Below, in pieces: positions 8,854-57,104 of a stretch of DNA of 64,000 nt. The notes beneath the pieces were generated by a model that did no database searches, had not been told where the DNA came from, and was given only the letters and a program-made list of their open reading frames with translations. Both the position numbers and the translations under genes were made by a program. Each line of letters starts with the position of its first letter. Position 1 is the stretch's first letter. Source of the DNA: Streptomyces sp. CB01201 (lineage in GTDB: Bacteria > Actinomycetota > Actinomycetes > Streptomycetales > Streptomycetaceae). The stretch spans positions 62,001-126,000 of the forward strand of contig NZ_NNBJ01000003.1 in assembly GCF_002803085.1 (NCBI RefSeq), written 5' to 3'.

Positions 8854-10926
8854 ATGAGCACCCGGTATCCGTTCACCGCCGTCGTCGGCATGGACGACCT
8901 GCGCCTCGCGCTGCTCCTGAACGCCGTCAGCCCGGCGGTGGGCGGGGTCCTCGTCCGGGGCGAGAAGGGCACCGCCAAGAGCACCGCCGTGCGGGCGCTC
9001 GCGGATCTGCTGCCCGCGGTGGCGGTCGTCGCGGGCTGCCGGTTCAGCTGCGACCCGGCCGCGCCGGACCCCGAGTGCCCGGACGGGCCGCACGAGAGCG
9101 GCCCCGGCACGGCCCGCGCGGCCCGCATGGTCGAGCTTCCCGTCGGCGCGTCCGAGGACCGCCTGGTGGGCGCCCTCGACATCGAGCGGGCGCTGGGCGA
9201 GGGCGTGAAGTCCTTCGAGCCGGGGCTGCTCGCGGACGCCCATCGCGGCATCCTGTACGTCGACGAGGTCAACCTGCTGCACGACCACCTCATCGACCTC
9301 CTCCTCGACGCCGCCGCCATGGGCTCGTCCTATGTCGAGCGCGAGGGCGTCTCGGTACGGCACGCGGCCCGCTTCCTGCTCGTCGGCACGATGAACCCCG
9401 AAGAGGGCGAGCTGCGGCCGCAGTTGCTCGACCGGTTCGGCCTGACCGTGGAGGTCGCCGCCTCGCGCGAGCCCGAGCAGCGGGTCGAGGTGGTGCGCCG
9501 CCGTCTCGCCTACGACGACGACCCGGCCGGCTTCGCCGCGCGCTGGGCCGAGGACGAGGGCGCACTGCGCCAACGGATCGTCGCCGCACGGGAGTTGCTG
9601 CCGTCCGTCACGCTCGGGGACGCGGTGCTGCTCCAGATCGCCGCGACCTGCGCCGCGTTCGAGGTCGACGGCATGCGCGCCGACATCGTGATGGCCCGCA
9701 CCGCGACCGCGCTCGCCGCGTGGGCGGGCCGCACCGAGGTGACGAGCGACGACGTCCGCCAGGCCGCGCTGCTCGCGCTGCCGCACCGGCGCCGGCGCAA
9801 CCCCTTCGACGCGCCGGGCCTCGACCAGGACAAGCTCGACGAGACCCTTGAGCAGTTCAAGGACGAGCAGTCCACGAGCGAGCGGTCCAAGGACGAGGAC
9901 GACGATCCCGACCCGGGCCCCGAGGGCCCCGGCGGCGGTGGGGGCGGCGGGGTGCCCCCGCAGGGCGACTCCCCCGAGAACCCCGCCGAATCGCCTGAAT
10001 CACCCGAGTCCTCGGACGCGTCCGAGTCCTCCGAGTCCTCCGAGTCCACGGAGCCGTCCGCCGCGCCCGCCCCGGGCGGACCCGGCGAGCGGGCCGCGGT
10101 GAAGGCCGCCGAACCGTTCCGTACGAAGATGCTGAGCGTGCCCGGTCTGGGCGAGGGGGCCGCGGGCCGGCGCTCGCGGGCCCGCACCGACCACGGCCGC
10201 ACCACCGGCTCGCGCCGGCCCCAAGGGGCGCTCACCAAGCTGCACTTGGCGGCGACCGTACAGGCCGCGGCCCCGCACCAGCGGGCGCGCGGGCGCTCCG
10301 GGCGGGGTCTCGTGGTGCGCCGGGACGATCTGCGCCAGGCCACCCGCGAGGGGCGCGAGGGCAACCTCGTGCTGTTCGTGGTGGACGCGTCCGGGTCGAT
10401 GGCGGCGCGGCAGCGGATGAGCGCGGTCAAGGGCGCGGTGCTCTCGCTGCTGCTCGACGCCTACCAGCGCCGCGACAAGGTCGGCCTGGTCACCTTCCGC
10501 GGCAAGGACGCCGAGCTCGCGCTGCCGCCCACCTCGTCGGTGGACGCGGCCGCGGCCCGGCTCGAAACGCTGCCGACCGGCGGGCGCACCCCGCTCGCGG
10601 CGGGGCTGCTCAAGGCCCATGACGTGCTGCGGGTGGAGCGGCTGCGCGATCCCTCGCGCCGGCCGCTGCTCGTGGTGGTCACCGACGGCCGGGCCACCGG
10701 CGGCCCCGAGCCGGTGGCGCTCGGCGCCCGCGCGGCCCGGCTGCACGCCGGCGAGGGCACCGCCTCGGTGGTCGTGGACTGCGAGTCGGGGATGGTCCGG
10801 CTCGGGCTCGCCGGGGAGCTCGCACGCGAACTCGGCGGCACCGCCGTCACGTTGGACGAGCTGCGGGCGGATTCCATCGCCGGTCTCGTCAAGGACGCAA
10901 CCGCACCTTCGAGGAGGGCCGCTTAA
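8854..10926 (+). CDS. Putative cobaltochelatase AAA+/VWA subunit (BchI-BchD/ChlI-ChlD type)
   Basis: A 690-aa fusion of an AAA+ ATPase and a von Willebrand factor A domain, the layout of the small subunits of magnesium/cobalt chelatases. Walker A is RGEKGTAKST (about residues 35-44), Walker B is ILYVDEVNLL (about 133-142), and the lid helices follow to about residue 325. A highly acidic, Pro/Ser/Glu-rich linker (about 330-410, including runs such as SPESPESSDASESSESSE) joins the C-terminal VWA domain, which has the MIDAS motif VVDASGSM. It should power cobalt insertion into hydrogenobyrinic acid diamide together with a CobN subunit, which is not encoded nearby. A strong AAGGAG precedes ATG 8854. 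The stop overlaps the cobO start. Confidence 0.88.
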   Translation: MSTRYPFTAVVGMDDLRLALLLNAVSPAVGGVLVRGEKGTAKSTAVRALADLLPAVAVVAGCRFSCDPAAPDPECPDGPHESGPGTARAARMVELPVGASEDRLVGALDIERALGEGVKSFEPGLLADAHRGILYVDEVNLLHDHLIDLLLDAAAMGSSYVEREGVSVRHAARFLLVGTMNPEEGELRPQLLDRFGLTVEVAASREPEQRVEVVRRRLAYDDDPAGFAARWAEDEGALRQRIVAARELLPSVTLGDAVLLQIAATCAAFEVDGMRADIVMARTATALAAWAGRTEVTSDDVRQAALLALPHRRRRNPFDAPGLDQDKLDETLEQFKDEQSTSERSKDEDDDPDPGPEGPGGGGGGGVPPQGDSPENPAESPESPESSDASESSESSESTEPSAAPAPGGPGERAAVKAAEPFRTKMLSVPGLGEGAAGRRSRARTDHGRTTGSRRPQGALTKLHLAATVQAAAPHQRARGRSGRGLVVRRDDLRQATREGREGNLVLFVVDASGSMAARQRMSAVKGAVLSLLLDAYQRRDKVGLVTFRGKDAELALPPTSSVDAAAARLETLPTGGRTPLAAGLLKAHDVLRVERLRDPSRRPLLVVVTDGRATGGPEPVALGARAARLHAGEGTASVVVDCESGMVRLGLAGELARELGGTAVTLDELRADSIAGLVKDATAPSRRAA

Positions 10927-22113: not shown

Positions 22114-22974
22114 ATGACCGCCCAGGATCTCTACCCCACCCGTGGCTCCGCCGAGGTGATCACGCCCCGCCAGGACCCGGTCGTCTGGGGACCGTCCGCC
22201 GGACTCGAATCCTTCGAGCAGGACGGCTTCCTCGCGATCGAGGACCTGCTCTCGGACGACGAAGTGGCGCTCTACCGCTCGGAATTGGAGCGTTTGATCG
22301 CCGATCCTTCCGTACGTGCCGACGAGCGGTCGATCATCGAACCGCAGTCGCAGTCCGTGCGGTCGGTCTTCGAGGTGCACCGGATCAGTGAGATCTTCGC
22401 GCGTCTGGTGCGCGACGAGCGGGTCGTGGGCACGGCCCGCCGGATCCTCGGCTCGGACGTGTACGTCCACCAGTCGCGGATCAACGTGAAGCCGGGCTTC
22501 GGTGCCTCCGGCTTCTACTGGCACTCGGACTTCGAGACCTGGCACGCCGAGGACGGTCTGCCGCGGATGCGGACGGTGTCGGTCTCGATCGCGCTGACCG
22601 AGAACCACGACACCAACGGCGGGCTGATGATCATGCCCGGCTCGCACCTGGACTTCCTCGGCTGCGAGGGCGCCACCCCGAAGGACAACTACAAGAAGTC
22701 CCTTCAGATGCAGGACGCGGGCACCCCGTCCGACGAGGCGCTCACCAAGATGGCCGACCGGCACGGCATCAAGCTGTTCACCGGCCGGGCCGGCTCGGCG
22801 ACCTGGTTCGACTGCAACGCGATGCACGGTTCCGGGGACAACATCACCCCGTTCCCGCGCAGCAACGTGTTCATCGTCTTCAACAGCGTGGAGAACGCGG
22901 CCGAGGAACCCTTCGCCGCCCCCATCCGCCGCCCGGAATTCATCGGGGCGCGGGACTTCACGCCGGTGCGGTAG
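22114..22974 (+). CDS. ectD: Ectoine hydroxylase
   Basis: A 286-aa Fe(II)/2-oxoglutarate dioxygenase that hydroxylates ectoine to 5-hydroxyectoine. The iron triad is His137 and Asp139 in FYWHSDFETWHAEDG and His238 in NAMHGSGDN; the 2-oxoglutarate-binding arginine lies shortly after in PFPRSNVF. The N-terminus has the family's FEQDGFLAIEDLLS. ATG 22114 follows the ectC stop by two bases, with GAGGAGGG upstream. The last ten codons are duplicated in tandem downstream together with the terminator. Confidence 0.96.
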   Translation: MTAQDLYPTRGSAEVITPRQDPVVWGPSAGLESFEQDGFLAIEDLLSDDEVALYRSELERLIADPSVRADERSIIEPQSQSVRSVFEVHRISEIFARLVRDERVVGTARRILGSDVYVHQSRINVKPGFGASGFYWHSDFETWHAEDGLPRMRTVSVSIALTENHDTNGGLMIMPGSHLDFLGCEGATPKDNYKKSLQMQDAGTPSDEALTKMADRHGIKLFTGRAGSATWFDCNAMHGSGDNITPFPRSNVFIVFNSVENAAEEPFAAPIRRPEFIGARDFTPVR

Positions 22975-23132
22975 AGCCCGTCCGGCCGGGGGTCCGGGGG
23001 TTGCCCCCGGAAAACACAGCATCGGGGCGCGGGACTTCACGCCGGTGCGGTAGAGCCCCTCCGGCCGAGGGTCCGGGGGTTGCCCCCGGAAAACACAGCA
23101 TCGGGGCGCGGGACTTCACGCCGGTGCGATAG
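22942..23132 (+). repeat. 79-bp tandem repeat carrying the ectD 3' end and terminator
   Basis: Unit 1 (22942-23020) contains the last ten ectD codons (IGARDFTPVR and stop) plus a hairpin TCCGGGGG-TTG-CCCCCGGA at 22993-23011 and the tail AAAACACAGC. Unit 2 (23021-23099) repeats it with two base changes and a second hairpin at 23072-23090. A third, partial copy (23100-23132) ends within the stop region. The result is a double terminator and three copies of the C-terminal coding end. Confidence 0.95.
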
Positions 23133-34345: not shown

Positions 34346-34560
34346 GGGGCGCGAGGAACCGCGCGAGCAACCACCCACAGCCCGAGGCCAAAAACGGGGC
34401 AAGGGGCGCGAGGAACCGCGCGAGCAACCACCCACAGCCCGAGGCCAAAAACGGGGCAAGGGGCGCGAGGAACCGCGCGAGCAACCACCCACAGCCCGAG
34501 GCCAAAGACGGGCGAGGGGCGCGAGGAACTGCGCGAGCAACCAGCCACGGCCCGCAGCCG
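34346..34560 (+). repeat. Four tandem copies of a 57-bp dispersed repeat
   Basis: Copies start at 34346, 34403, 34460 and 34516 (periods 57, 57 and 56). Each begins GGGGCGCGAGGAACCGCGCG and continues GAGCAACCACCCACAGCCCG. Copies 1-3 are nearly identical; the fourth diverges towards the form seen elsewhere. Because 57 is divisible by three, the repeat keeps an apparent reading frame open, but nothing supports translation. Confidence 0.9.
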
Positions 34561-43640: not shown

Positions 43641-43760
43641 TCGTCGAAGCTGGCCGAGGCTGGCCGAGGCTGGCCGAGGCTGGCCGAGGCTGGCCGAGGC
43701 TGGCCGAGGCTGGCCGAGGCTGGCCGAGGCTGGCCGAGGTTCGTCGAGGTTCGTCGAGGT
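43641..43760 (+). repeat. Decamer minisatellite (12 x 10 bp)
   Basis: Nine copies of TGGCCGAGGC (the last ending in T) occupy 43651-43740, preceded by one TCGTCGAAGC and followed by two TCGTCGAGGT units. The block ends 39 bases before the TerD gene start, in its likely promoter region. Confidence 0.95.
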
Positions 43761-45170: not shown

Positions 45171-45341
45171 TTACCGTCGCGGAGTGCGACAGGCCGGGTC
45201 GCCGTTCAGGTGCTTCCAGTTGTCGGGGCGGGCCCCGCTCGCCGAGGCCCACGCACCCGCTTGGCTCGCGGGGACGGCGACGCCCACGATGGGCCGGTCG
45301 CAGTAGATGCAGAACTTGGTGCCGCTCACACCTAGCGTCAT
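45171..45341 (-). CDS. Small zinc-ribbon-like protein (56 aa)
   Basis: A 56-aa protein beginning MTLGVSGTKFCIYCDRPIVG and containing a later WKHLNGDPACRTPRR. A CxxC pair plus a third Cys near the C-terminus suggests a zinc-knuckle or treble-clef-like site, with the His in WKHLNG as the possible fourth ligand. Its ATG overlaps the stop of the preceding mini-gene (ATGA on the minus strand), so they are translationally coupled. Function unknown; lies at the end of the locus that includes an XRE regulator and flavoprotein. Confidence 0.65.
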   Translation of the reverse strand: MTLGVSGTKFCIYCDRPIVGVAVPASQAGAWASASGARPDNWKHLNGDPACRTPRR

Positions 45342-45541
45342 GACGCCTGGTCCAGCCGGACGGTGTGCTGTGCGGTGAGGCGGTACAGCGGCCTGATGCC
45401 ACGGTCCCCGGCGCAGCCCTCGTGGGCGTACACCGGGCTGGCGGAGCCGCTCGTCGGGGCGGACAGGCGCACGCAGCGGTCCGCCCCTGCCTTCCCGCAG
45501 TACGCGCACTCGTGGGGTGCGATTGCAGGCTTGTCGCTCAT
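45338..45541 (-). CDS. Small zinc-ribbon-like protein (67 aa)
   Basis: A 67-aa protein with CAYCGKAGADRC near the start and YAHEGCAGDRG in the middle; two CxxC-like pairs and one His give a likely zinc-binding site. It resembles small hypothetical proteins found beside XRE regulators in Streptomyces. Coupled to the 56-aa gene downstream by an ATGA overlap. The promoter lies in the 111-base gap behind the strong hairpin at 45606-45634. Role unknown. Confidence 0.68.
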   Translation of the reverse strand: MSDKPAIAPHECAYCGKAGADRCVRLSAPTSGSASPVYAHEGCAGDRGIRPLYRLTAQHTVRLDQAS

Positions 45542-45605
45542 GCCGACCGTCCTCGGGATCGCGGTTGATCAGGTACGGAATCCAGGATGGCGGGCCGGCA
45601 AGCGT

Positions 45606-45634
45606 CCAACGCTCACGATTTTCGTGAGCGTTGG
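45606..45634 (-). terminator. Perfect 13-bp hairpin after the XRE regulator gene
   Basis: CCAACGCTCACGA (45606-45618), a TTT loop, and the exact complement (45622-45634). Placed between the XRE gene end and the start of the zinc-ribbon genes on the same strand, it probably terminates the XRE transcript; it could alternatively be an attenuator for the small genes. Confidence 0.75.
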
Positions 45635-45652
45635 CAGGTCAGGATATGAGCG

Positions 45653-46843
45653 TCAGCGGCCGATCCAGGCGGCCATGTGGCCGAGGCTCTCGGAGGTCCG
45701 GCGCGAGAGGTGTACCAGGCCTTTGATCGTCTCGCGGGCGCCCGGGTGGTAGCGGGTCTGCTCCGGGGCGGCGTGCCGGGCTTCGACGAGGGAGGCGAGT
45801 GCCGCTTCGGTGCGGCCGGTCTCCATTTCGGAGCGGGCTTGGTCGATCAGGAAGTGCGAGCGGCGGGAAGTCGCCAGAGTGGGCGGCAACTTGGGCCCGA
45901 TCCTCTTGGCCAGTTCGACAGCGTCGTCGTACCGCCGCATCTCCACCGCCGCCGACATGCGGTGCAGGGCCACGTTGGCCGGGCCGAAGGACAGCCAGTG
46001 CACGTCGGAGGCGTCCCCGACCCGCCGGGCGTGGTCGGCCGCCTCGGCCAAGTGGGTCTCGACGGCATGGCTGTCGTCGGCCCGGGCGGCGATGACCGAA
46101 GCACCGAGATGCAGTTGGCCGGCCACGGCGACGCTTTCCCGGGTGACTTCGGCGGCGCCGAGGGTGCTGTGGCCGGAACTGATGAGGCGCTGTCCGATGC
46201 TGTAGTCGCCCTCACGGAAGTACACGAGGGCGCGCATGTACTGGCGCAGGCTGTCGAGGCAGGGGTCGGAGGCGCGTTGCGCGGCCCAGCCGAGCCGGTC
46301 CAGGGCTACTGAACTCAGGTCGTAGTAACCGAGCTTGACGGTGATGTCGTGGGCGGTGCGGTACGTCGAGGCGAGCGCATGCCACAGTTCGGTCGACGGA
46401 GCCCGCCAAGCCGCCGTGGTGAGCTCCGCGATCAGGCCGGGCAGCCGGCCGGCGGCCCTACGGAGGCGGGTCGCTCTGACGTCGGCGCACAACTGGTCCG
46501 CCGCCTCCAGCAGCTTGGCCGCGGGGCTCGCGACGATGACGTCGTCGGCGCCCAGGTCGTACAGGTCGAGGGCTTCGCGGATGGGCCGGACCAGCACGGC
46601 CAGGCGGTCTTGCTGGAGTTCGGTCACGTAAGGCTGTCCTGTCAGCACGGTGACGTCGATCCGGAGGGCGTGCGCGACAGCCGCCAAGAGGTCGACGGTT
46701 GCCGGTTTGGCGCCGCATTCGACCTGGTTGAGGAGGCTGTACGAGTAGGGGATCCTCTCGGCCAGTTGTTTCTGGGTGAGGCGGGCCAGCTTCCGCTGCT
46801 GTTTGATGCGGTTGCCGGTGTGGTCGTCGTCCAGTCTCGGCAT
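45653..46843 (-). CDS. XRE family transcriptional regulator with C-terminal TPR-like repeats
   Basis: A 396-aa regulator. The N-terminal helix-turn-helix is IKQQRKLARLTQKQLAERIPYSYSLLNQVECGAKPATVDLL (about residues 13-55). The rest is all-helical with TPR-like repeats (for example ALDRLGWAAQRASDPCLDSLRQYMRALVYFREGDYSIG), as in peptide-sensing or NsdA/BldD-neighbour regulators of Streptomyces. It is divergent from the flavoprotein gene with a 117-base gap, so it probably controls it. Codon use is slightly less GC-biased than neighbouring housekeeping genes by eye, which suggests an accessory locus. Confidence 0.85.
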   Translation of the reverse strand: MPRLDDDHTGNRIKQQRKLARLTQKQLAERIPYSYSLLNQVECGAKPATVDLLAAVAHALRIDVTVLTGQPYVTELQQDRLAVLVRPIREALDLYDLGADDVIVASPAAKLLEAADQLCADVRATRLRRAAGRLPGLIAELTTAAWRAPSTELWHALASTYRTAHDITVKLGYYDLSSVALDRLGWAAQRASDPCLDSLRQYMRALVYFREGDYSIGQRLISSGHSTLGAAEVTRESVAVAGQLHLGASVIAARADDSHAVETHLAEAADHARRVGDASDVHWLSFGPANVALHRMSAAVEMRRYDDAVELAKRIGPKLPPTLATSRRSHFLIDQARSEMETGRTEAALASLVEARHAAPEQTRYHPGARETIKGLVHLSRRTSESLGHMAAWIGR

Positions 46844-46960
46844 AGTGGCTCCGTTCCCTGCTCGTCATGTGGAACGGTACGCGCGCGGGCCCCGCCCGAG
46901 GCCTGATCCGCCCCCGATTCCCCACGTTCGGGGGCCCGTTGCATGTGATCCACTGGTGAC

Positions 46961-47512
46961 ATGACGACGCAACGGACCTTGTATCTGTTCTGCTCGGCCG
47001 CACCACCGGCGTTCGATGTCGCCCACGTCATCGAGCAGGCCCAGGCCGAAGGCTGGGACGTGTGCCTGGGGTTGACGCCGACGGCCGCATCCTGGCTGGA
47101 GGAGAGCCTGTCGGGGCTGGCCACCCTGACGGGGCATCCTGTGCGCAGCCAGTACAAGAGGCCGGGTGAGCCGGACGTCTGGCCGCCCGCAGACGTCATC
47201 CTGGTCGCGCCGGCCACGTTCAACACGATCAACGCCTGGGCGCTCGGACTGACTTCGAACTTCGTGGTGGGCGTCGTCGCCGAGGGCATCGGCAAGCGGA
47301 TTCCGACGGTGACGATGCCGTGCGTGAACGCGGCCTACGTGCGGCATCCGCAGTTCGAGCAGTCGGTGGCGGTGCTGCGCGGGGCCGGGGTGACGGTGCT
47401 GTACGGGGAAGGCGGGTTCGTGCCGAACCAGCCGGGCGAGCGCCGGCCGGAGGGCTATCCGTGGCGGATCGCGCTGGATGCGGCAGAGTCGATTGTCAGT
47501 GCCCCGCAGTAG
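46961..47512 (+). CDS. HFCD-family flavoprotein (phosphopantothenoylcysteine decarboxylase-like)
   Basis: A 183-aa FMN-binding protein of the homo-oligomeric flavin-containing Cys decarboxylase family. The nucleotide-binding strand TLYLFCSAAPPAFDVAHVI, the PASANT-like motif APATFNTINAWALGLTSNFV, and the substrate-clamp-like TMPCVNAAYVRHPQFEQSV are present. Members decarboxylate phosphopantothenoylcysteine or C-terminal Cys residues of peptides. The single-domain form without a synthase partner, next to an XRE regulator and small proteins, points to an accessory role rather than CoA synthesis. A 59-aa protein gene follows after nine bases. Confidence 0.83.
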   Translation: MTTQRTLYLFCSAAPPAFDVAHVIEQAQAEGWDVCLGLTPTAASWLEESLSGLATLTGHPVRSQYKRPGEPDVWPPADVILVAPATFNTINAWALGLTSNFVVGVVAEGIGKRIPTVTMPCVNAAYVRHPQFEQSVAVLRGAGVTVLYGEGGFVPNQPGERRPEGYPWRIALDAAESIVSAPQ

Positions 47513-47521
47513 CCTAGGTAC

Positions 47522-47701
47522 ATGCCTCGTACACCTGCCACTCCTGGCCCCGCGCGCCCCGCTGCGGTGATCAACGCGCAGATTCGCGGGCTCGTCGATG
47601 GCGGCGGGCTCGGGTCCGACGAATATCTGGAGCTGCTGGTGGAGTGGGCTGTGGCGGTGCGCCCGGAGGGCCTGCGCGGGGACGTGACCGAGGCGGCTTG
47701 A
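47522..47701 (+). CDS. Small protein (59 aa) downstream of the flavoprotein
   Basis: A 59-aa frame from ATG 47522 to TGA 47701, starting nine bases after the flavoprotein stop. Its sequence begins MPRTPATPGPARPAAVINAQ and continues with an acidic helical part (SDEYLELLVEWAVAVRPEGLRGDVTEAA). It contains no cysteine, so it is not an obvious substrate for C-terminal Cys decarboxylation. A GGTAC/TAGGTAC sequence precedes the start. Likely co-transcribed with the flavoprotein; function unknown. Confidence 0.6.
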   Translation: MPRTPATPGPARPAAVINAQIRGLVDGGGLGSDEYLELLVEWAVAVRPEGLRGDVTEAA

Positions 47702-56549: not shown

Positions 56550-56623
56550 GGCGTCGGCGCCGGCCCGCGCCGGAGACCCCCAGCCCGTCCGGCGTTTGAG
56601 GACGAGCGCCCTTAAGGCGCGAC

Positions 56624-56873
56624 GGGGGTGCAGGGGGCGGAGCCCCGCGGGGGTGCAGGGGGCGGAGCCCCGCGGGGGTGCAGGGGGCGGAGCCCCGCGG
56701 GGGTGCAGGGGGCGGAGCCCCGCGGGGGTGCAGGGGGCGGAGCCCCGCGGGGGTGCAGGGGGCGGAGCCCCGCGGGGGTGCAGGGGGCGGAGCCCCGCGG
56801 GGGTGCAGGGGGCGGAGCCCCGCGGGGGTGCAGGGGGCGGAGCCCCGCGGGGGTGCAGGGGGCGGAGCCCCCT
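56624..56873. repeat. Ten-copy 25-bp minisatellite of terminator-like hairpins
   Basis: The unit starts GGGGGTGCAGGGGGCGGAGC and ends CCCGC; copies begin every 25 bases at 56624, 56649 and so on to 56849. Each contains the perfect hairpin GGGGC-GGA-GCCCC. The array lies between convergent dapA and dapD. Its lack of stop codons in any frame creates long spurious reading frames. Confidence 0.95.
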
Positions 56874-57104
56874 GCGGGGGTCCGAGGGGCGCAGCCCCTC
56901 AAGGGGGTCTGGGGCGCAGCCCCAGGGGCCGAACCCTTCAACCCCGCCGCACGGGCGGGCGGGTGGGCAAACCCCCCGGGGTCCGGGGCGGAGCCCCAGG
57001 GGGAGCCGGAACCCGCCAACCCCGAGCAACGGGCGGGAGGGTGGGCAAACCCCCCGGGGTCCGGGGCAGCGCCCCGGTGACCCCGGGCTTCCGGGCGACC
57101 CCGG
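56874..57104. repeat. Degenerate GC-rich hairpins before the dapD gene
   Basis: Further GGGGCGGAGCCCC, GGGGCGCAGCCCC and CCCCCGGGGTCCGGGG hairpins, plus two AACGGGCGGGAGGGTGGGCA / ACGGGCGGGCGGGTGGGCAA units, fill this stretch. No gene is visible. It probably terminates the dapD transcript. Confidence 0.6.

Follow-up and report, generated by a model that had tools for sequence, protein, structure and literature searches.

Introduction

Several described systems invite comparison with the subject of this article, a regulator gene (XRE) and a flavoprotein gene (FLAV) that lie back to back in a 64,000-nucleotide stretch of Streptomyces sp. CB01201 (assembly GCF_002803085.1, 8.76 Mb; contig NZ_NNBJ01000003.1, positions 62,001 to 126,000), referred to here as the window. 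The XRE-DUF397 pairs (Scr1/Scr2, SCO4441/4442) are present in many scattered copies and, according to PMC10364602, were proposed to be toxin–antitoxin systems and found to regulate antibiotic production. Like XRE and FLAV, they place an XRE-type regulator beside a small partner gene. However, that account gives their regulators a DUF5753 C-terminus and their DUF397 partners a length of 63–96 amino acids (aa), whereas XRE has a predicted tetratricopeptide repeat (TPR) superhelix and FLAV is a flavoprotein of 183 aa, divergent from XRE in the window's clade. Neither a DUF397 partner nor a DUF5753 C-terminus was matched in Pfam at E 1 by the five proteins of the locus, which are XRE, FLAV and three small proteins named P59, Zn67 and Zn56 (Table 1).

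A second comparison is offered by the HFCD flavoproteins, whose known members are homotrimers or dodecamers with bound flavin mononucleotide (FMN), as described in PMC7794376. Common to FLAV and to TvaF, SpaF, EpiD and CoaC/AtHAL3a are the predicted fold (Z 16.6–19.2), the FMN-site Asn and the clamp Asn; FLAV differs from the HFCD flavoproteins in having no catalytic His and in being paired with a regulator, and no substrate peptide or coenzyme A (CoA) partner was seen with it. On the regulator side, the architecture of the RRNPP receptors (PlcR, Rap, NprR, AimR), a helix-turn-helix (HTH) followed by TPRs, is also that of XRE as far as its structure model goes, Rap itself being without an HTH. 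The 396 aa of XRE lie within the 250–500 aa given for these TPR-containing receptors in PMC10075063. The constant neighbour of XRE is a flavoprotein, whereas no exported propeptide was recognised near it among the three small proteins checked. Finally, the NsdA-family TPR regulators of Streptomyces (NF053720 in NCBIfam) are matched weakly by XRE (26.2 bits) and by its paralogue in locus L114 (46.8 bits); both scores are under the 75-bit cut-off, and the two proteins are therefore not members of that family.

A sequence-only reading of the window had put this locus forward as the best candidate for an undescribed system, and no published account of the XRE-FLAV pair was found in the literature searched, which was covered largely at abstract level with subscription journals mostly outside it, so that absence is not proven. 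The sequences show XRE and FLAV to be a conserved regulator–flavoprotein unit that extends across several families, and they also yield the motifs, a fold prediction and the absence of the His. We infer in addition that XRE binds DNA and represses, that FLAV binds FMN and that sensing goes through the TPRs.

The XRE-FLAV Pair in Streptomyces

At E 1e-20, relatives of FLAV turn up in 172 of the 199 Streptomyces genomes searched. The places of XRE and FLAV in these genomes were matched by eye, with FLAV matches listed down to about E 2e-31 and at most nine XRE candidates scored per genome. Among the matches listed, every one of the 24 XRE places of at least 55% identity is divergent to FLAV (the window and one partial XRE included), as against none of the 42 weaker XRE places adjoining a listed FLAV, which rules out a chance grouping of the two genes.

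A set of 81 loci was made up of the window and the best 80 of 325 confirmed stretches with a close FLAV, taken with up to 10 kb per side. A window-type XRE match is divergent and adjacent to FLAV in 56 of the 81, some of these XREs being truncated; the two starts are within 400 bp of each other in 53, and both proteins are near full length in 47 of the 80 fetched loci. Another 28 loci are without an intact facing XRE start, three of them holding an XRE with an altered start. Close XREs thus go with FLAV, whereas FLAV also occurs without XRE. When the called genes within 5 kb were clustered, FLAV was found in 80 loci and XRE in 51 (two distant XRE-like genes, at L057 and L059, among them), followed by a cluster in 11 loci, and no constant enzyme partner emerged. 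The sequence-only reading had regarded the five genes as a self-contained unit, to be given up as accidental if the neighbours of the flavoprotein never co-occurred with it; XRE clearly does co-occur, the others do so more weakly, and what recurs in varied genomic places is the XRE-FLAV pair, with the 59-aa and mini-protein genes not being fixed members.

The upstream open reading frames (ORFs) of 21 chosen loci without the expected XRE, inspected by eye, resemble kinases, a replication-type protein or wrong-frame ORFs, with nothing constant that could be called another coupled partner. In L059, L073 and a plasmid record (NZ_CP109020.1, 110253–112689), an XRE-less FLAV has an HTH gene before it, and the plasmid record adds an annotated class IV adenylate cyclase. 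In L037 (about 8.1–11.1 kb) and L043 (about 7.8–10.6 kb), an SLOG/DprA-like gene with a weak Pfam match and a TPR-like gene precede FLAV; Zn56 is nearby in both, and in L037 a second FLAV follows the first. The one ORF that matches both profiles, in L149, is not a fusion; it is a frame-broken XRE that runs into FLAV.

Age and Spread of the Pairing

Searched with a profile at E 1e-15, 109 of 394 Actinomycetes genomes and 25 of 137 genera have FLAV relatives, Streptomyces included. From the matches listed, 60 distant loci were picked, 40 from other Actinomycetes families and 20 from a Streptomyces class of about 40% identity, and each was examined for a same-strand XRE-TPR ORF (profile E < 1e-20) ending at the FLAV start. 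Such an ORF was found in 14 of the 40, 11 times with a 4-bp overlap, and in 10 of the 20, always with the overlap, which is thus present in 21 of the 24 coupled distant loci; some of the XRE matches in the 60 are short or broken (L212, L215, L219). In two smaller sets the numbers are 9 of 15, with the paralogue L114 from the genome of the window among them, and 10 of 15; L124 and L154 are one and the same place. These smaller sets supplied eight pairs that, together with the window XRE, went into the XRE profile, so that the 60 distant loci are the fairer test. More distant FLAVs, also outside Streptomyces, are thus often preceded by an XRE-TPR gene that overlaps them by 4 bp, and the pairing is therefore old. 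Over 47 loci the distances between XREs correlate with those between FLAVs (r 0.52, the highest of 1000 permutations being 0.20), as would be expected if both travel together.

The Flavoprotein

FLAV matches the Pfam Flavoprotein family (PF02441) at E 1e-9, and the best matches of its structure model (mean predicted local distance difference test score, pLDDT, 85.5) are HFCD structures, namely TvaF, CoaBC, SpaF, dipicolinate synthase B, MrsD and EpiD (Z 17–19). The HFCD assignment made from the sequence is borne out by this predicted model, which takes the Rossmann-like fold of the family (TvaF 6jls, Z 19.2, root-mean-square deviation 2.5, 156 residues aligned; 6tgv_C, Z 18.9, deviation 2.9, 170 aligned).

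The departure from the family is at position 70, where E (130), D (42) and Q (22) account for 194 of 205 unique FLAV relatives and His for none; at any of positions 60–79, His is found in at most 11 of the 205. TvaF, SpaF and the CoaBC of the same genome each have a His in the stretch aligned to position 70, and this we take to be the catalytic His of HFCD decarboxylases. CoaBC has PHVRIGQGAD opposite GEPDVWPPAD of FLAV, and counted back from the common AD the His meets E70. N88, in a PASANT-type motif and presumably the FMN-site Asn, and the clamp Asn N123, which we assume to have a substrate-holding role, are each kept in 190 of the 205 relatives, and H129 in 176. Among the structural matches is PDB entry 1g5q, the complex of EpiD H67N, a mutant that is reportedly inactive.

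The genome has a separate CoaBC elsewhere (locus L003, 399.9 bits), and FLAV was rejected as a CoaC/CoaBC, with NCBIfam scores of 29.9 bits against a cut-off of 261.4 and 28 against 219.7. No CoA partner or peptide-modifying enzyme was seen inside the unit, as had been said before. With no His in 205 relatives and a separate CoaBC in the genome, ordinary cysteine decarboxylation is unlikely; FLAV reads as a protein that has lost this activity and that likely still binds a flavin. Phage records match FLAV in four cases only, all below 30% identity.

The Regulator

XRE matches Pfam HTH_3 at E 1.3e-6. In the sequence its TPRs stay below the Pfam cut-off (TPR_14, E 0.095) and they rest on an AF2 model (mean pLDDT 86.6) that has an HTH and then a TPR-like superhelix; of the "XRE/TPR regulator" of the sequence-only reading, the first half therefore stands on a family match and the second on the model. 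With Foldseek, PlcR (E 1.6e-4) alone falls below 0.001. The model aligns at Z 16–18 with Rap, NprR and AimR, and equally well or better with eukaryotic TPR proteins.

XRE is matched over its full length by PHROG 5823 (E 5.7e-64), and relatives of 27–45% identity are found in ten records of six Streptomyces phages. In phage VWB (NC_005345.2, 45049–46918) a HAD hydrolase gene is directly before the XRE-TPR relative, and in L128 (4535–6470) a HAD-like gene, recognised by eye, precedes an XRE relative; in both places it looks like an alternative partner to FLAV.

The Control Region and the Hairpin

The divergent XRE/FLAV promoter region is 117 bp long and holds two dyads that are candidate operators. 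Patterns chosen after viewing the sequences were counted in 53 intergenic regions and in single-base shuffles of them. On the XRE side, GTTCC-N8..18-GGAAC is found in 19 of the 53 (0.1 in shuffles) and GGAAC[GA][GC]TAC in 25 (0.0); a pattern related to the FLAV-side dyad is found in 7 (0.1). Before FLAV, GGTTGC[AG] occurs in 20 regions (1.3 in shuffles) and a GGGG..TTGC pattern in 16 (0.0). Unbiased counts give a weaker contrast: 24 of 53 regions have a perfect 6-bp inverted repeat in the 60 bases nearest to XRE, against 6.5 in shuffles. Streptomyces promoters often deviate from the sigma-70 consensus, and a scan for sigma-70-type promoters, whose consensus may not suit this genus, found none.

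The hairpin beyond the XRE stop has a folding energy of −23.3 kcal/mol (in a 40-nt piece of the minus strand) and no T-run. Perfect stems of at least 9 bp follow the XRE stop in 16 of 49 loci, the mean in shuffles being 0.17, and AACGCTCAC is present in 11 of these 16 stems. In 121 genomes, ACGCTCAC-N2..8-GTGAGCGT has 15 sites, six of them no more than about 35 bp away from where a window-type XRE ends; 18 such XREs are listed for these genomes. The hairpin was rejected as a genome-wide repeat, as its own genome has a single site at up to three mismatches; it is probably a terminator or a binding site.

Mobility and the Small Genes

FLAV relatives are carried on 91 plasmid records, 86 of them named Streptomyces and 59 at a minimum of 60% identity. 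In the window the XRE-FLAV unit is flanked by a TerD gene on one side and a ketosynthase gene on the other. Twenty loci anchored on the TerD gene were fetched, one being the window itself, and the other 19 have no XRE or FLAV in about 1.5 kb beyond TerD; one of them (L236) has a P59 relative there. In L036 both outer neighbours are as in the window and FLAV is present without XRE.

P59, Zn67 and Zn56 have no match in Pfam or NCBIfam at E 1. The earlier description of the latter two as zinc ribbons comes down to a Cys/His pattern, both families having C-x2-C and, further on, a His and a Cys. Profiles iterated across the 81 loci gave eight matches for P59, all directly 3' of FLAV; Zn67 in four loci, always directly 3' of XRE; and 13 matches for Zn56 in 11 loci, 11 of the 13 at −3.1 to −1.1 kb from the FLAV start. 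In the 199 Streptomyces genomes P59 relatives are present in 126, few of those listed being beside FLAV when judged by eye, and the window's own genome has five copies; Zn56 is found in eight and Zn67 in seven. For the small genes, an accidental grouping is therefore partly correct. Both mini-proteins also occur in stretches where no FLAV turned up, and together with their rarity at FLAV loci this makes them unlikely substrates, a role that the sequence-only reading had offered for them.

None of the other 80 loci was found to have all five genes. Zn67, XRE, FLAV and P59 stand together only in L033 and L040, neither with Zn56, and a fixed five-gene system was rejected. The same small-gene flanks are seen elsewhere, in L033, which speaks for mobility, and plasmid record NZ_CP109244.1 repeats the order XRE / FLAV, P59-like, 67 aa, with the same nine-base gap. 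Elsewhere in the window's own genome (L113, C3:256001-276000, at 9485–10699), a GntR-type gene has relatives of Zn67 and P59 on its two sides, with holin and endolysin genes close by. The small-gene flanks can therefore surround another regulator, as if regulators had been swapped inside them. P59, Zn67 and Zn56 are accordingly taken as optional cargo at fixed slots, mostly absent but, where they do occur close to the pair, almost invariably found in one and the same slot.

Layout of the Locus

The five ORFs with their coordinates, the nine-base gap, the 13-bp hairpin and the two mini-protein genes with their 4-bp overlap (Table 1) are all where the sequence-only reading had placed them. What it noticed goes beyond chance: XRE and FLAV match Pfam, all three small proteins have homologues elsewhere, and stems recur after XREs.

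Table 1. Features of the XRE-FLAV locus, in positions of the window
Feature	Position	Strand	Description
Zn56	45171-45341	-	56 aa, optional mini-protein, CxxC...H...C; start overlaps Zn67 stop by 4 bp
Zn67	45338-45541	-	67 aa, optional mini-protein, CxxC...C...HxxC
Hairpin, perfect 13-bp dyad, 3' of XRE	45606-45634		Probable terminator or binding site
XRE	45653-46843	-	396 aa; HTH (residues ~10-66) and TPR-like helical superhelix (model); regulator half of the pair
XRE-side dyad CCGTTCC-N13-GGAACGG	46851-46877		7 nt from XRE start codon; candidate operator
FLAV-side dyad GCCCCCGA-N10-TCGGGGGC	46910-46935		Perfect 8-bp arms in the window; candidate operator
FLAV leader/promoter element GTTGCATGTGATC	46938-46950	+	Candidate, from pattern counts across loci
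FLAV	46961-47512	+	183 aa; HFCD-fold flavoprotein (predicted) without the catalytic His
P59	47522-47701	+	59 aa, optional, widespread Streptomyces family; nine bases after FLAV

The window also has several tandem repeats. A 10-bp unit, CGAGGCTGGC, is present in about 9.5 head-to-tail copies at 43645–43739, just before the TerD gene, and further arrays are found at 56623–56898 (11 copies of 25 bp), 34346–34554 (3.7 copies of 57 bp) and 22941–23132 (2.4 copies of 79 bp).

Discussion

The reading that we put first, although with somewhat less than even confidence, is a self-regulated, horizontally mobile XRE-FLAV pair in which the state or the product of FLAV is read by XRE. XRE would bind the dyads of the divergent region and so control both its own gene and FLAV. 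FLAV would retain the HFCD fold and the FMN-site Asn, with an acidic residue or Gln at the position of the catalytic His, and would thus not be an ordinary cysteine decarboxylase; it may bind FMN, a related flavin or a ligand. The TPR domain of XRE would then read the state of FLAV or its product, and repression would be released, with P59, Zn67 and Zn56 as optional cargo. Extended to the whole class, the proposal becomes a flavin-sensing switch of Actinomycetes: an HFCD protein with an acidic residue in place of the lost His would serve an RRNPP-like HTH-TPR repressor as its dedicated sensor subunit, and the TPR regulator would be set by FMN or a flavin ligand instead of a peptide. In this general form the proposal is rather doubtful.

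Several observations weigh against the reading put first. In 25 of the 81 loci no window-type XRE is beside FLAV, so FLAV can do without its partner, which favours an independent effector with XRE as a mere local repressor. The coupled XRE-TPR ORF was missing in 26 of the 40 and 10 of the 20 distant loci, and the loci gathered yielded no fusion of XRE with FLAV. The dyad patterns were picked post hoc from related loci, and with such patterns and the shared descent of the loci simple shuffles overstate the dyads; counted without bias, perfect 6-bp inverted repeats of any kind are present in 34 of 53 regions against 20.1 in shuffles. The element TGTG[AG]TC, which lies at the FLAV start or immediately ahead of it, is equally common without XRE (26 of the 53 loci with an intact facing XRE start, 17 of the 28 without), and being present regardless of XRE it reads as a promoter more than as an XRE site. 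Lastly, the register that sets E70 against the His is an ungapped match to CoaBC, and hhalign places the CoaBC His in a gap.

The arrangement that ranks close behind sensing, which remains our best guess, is possible though somewhat unlikely: XRE as no more than the dedicated local repressor of FLAV, with no protein–protein sensing, and FLAV as an enzyme acting on a small molecule by an altered flavin chemistry (oxidation, reduction or binding). Such an arrangement would suit the listed close XREs that are all beside FLAV while so many FLAV loci have no such XRE, the kept clamp Asn, and two plasmid copies of FLAV that sit among biosynthesis-type genes. The recurrent 4-bp start–stop overlaps speak for matched amounts of the two proteins instead, and no constant enzyme partner was found within 5 kb.

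That XRE is an RRNPP-like receptor for quorum sensing, with its peptide encoded nearby and FLAV as the target gene, is improbable. Its HTH and TPR model, the PlcR match, the alignments to Rap, NprR and AimR and its length would all fit. Against this, TPR superhelices also match many unrelated proteins, some of them better, and the small proteins of the locus have no strongly hydrophobic N-terminal segment of the kind looked for (best 12-residue hydrophobic means: P59 1.23, Zn67 0.27, Zn56 1.32).

A slighter chance still is given to FLAV as a true peptidyl- or phosphopantothenoyl-cysteine decarboxylase acting on an unseen peptide or mini-protein, to which the HFCD fold and the structural matches (TvaF, SpaF, EpiD, CypD) point. 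A plasmid of S. albidoflavus seems at first to supply the peptide: in NZ_CP109244.1 (111301–121967), XRE, FLAV and P59 are followed, 0.5 kb after FLAV, by a 68-aa transglutaminase-like piece annotated as a "lasso peptide biosynthesis protein" (Pfam Transglut_core3), and an asparagine-synthase/B2/ABC lasso-peptide cluster is about 5.6 kb away. Among 275 loci, however, this piece matches only the three records of that plasmid type and shares 88% identity with the final part of the nearby B2 gene; it therefore looks like a stray copy, and a lasso-peptide link was rejected as confined to that plasmid type. No constant peptide gene is near FLAV, CoaBC is encoded elsewhere, and decarboxylation of cysteine or of a peptide, as the sequence-only reading had it, is unsupported in a family without the catalytic His, subject to the register noted above; the peptide-decarboxylase reading is disfavoured.

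Least probable is a toxin–antitoxin or anti-phage module in which XRE would be the antitoxin and FLAV the effector. Although the pair is mobile, found in varied places and autoregulated in appearance, with XRE relatives in phages, FLAV stands without XRE in 25 of the 81 loci and has no match in PADLOC at E 1, where XRE is matched through its HTH end only.

Despite being common, these genes are labelled merely "flavoprotein" and "helix-turn-helix" in the annotated plasmid copies examined, and the missing His is a caution against naming such flavoproteins cysteine decarboxylases. If FLAV is indeed sensed by XRE, the pair would be a short, testable two-gene system in which a transcription switch of antibiotic producers has taken over an enzyme fold to read flavin.

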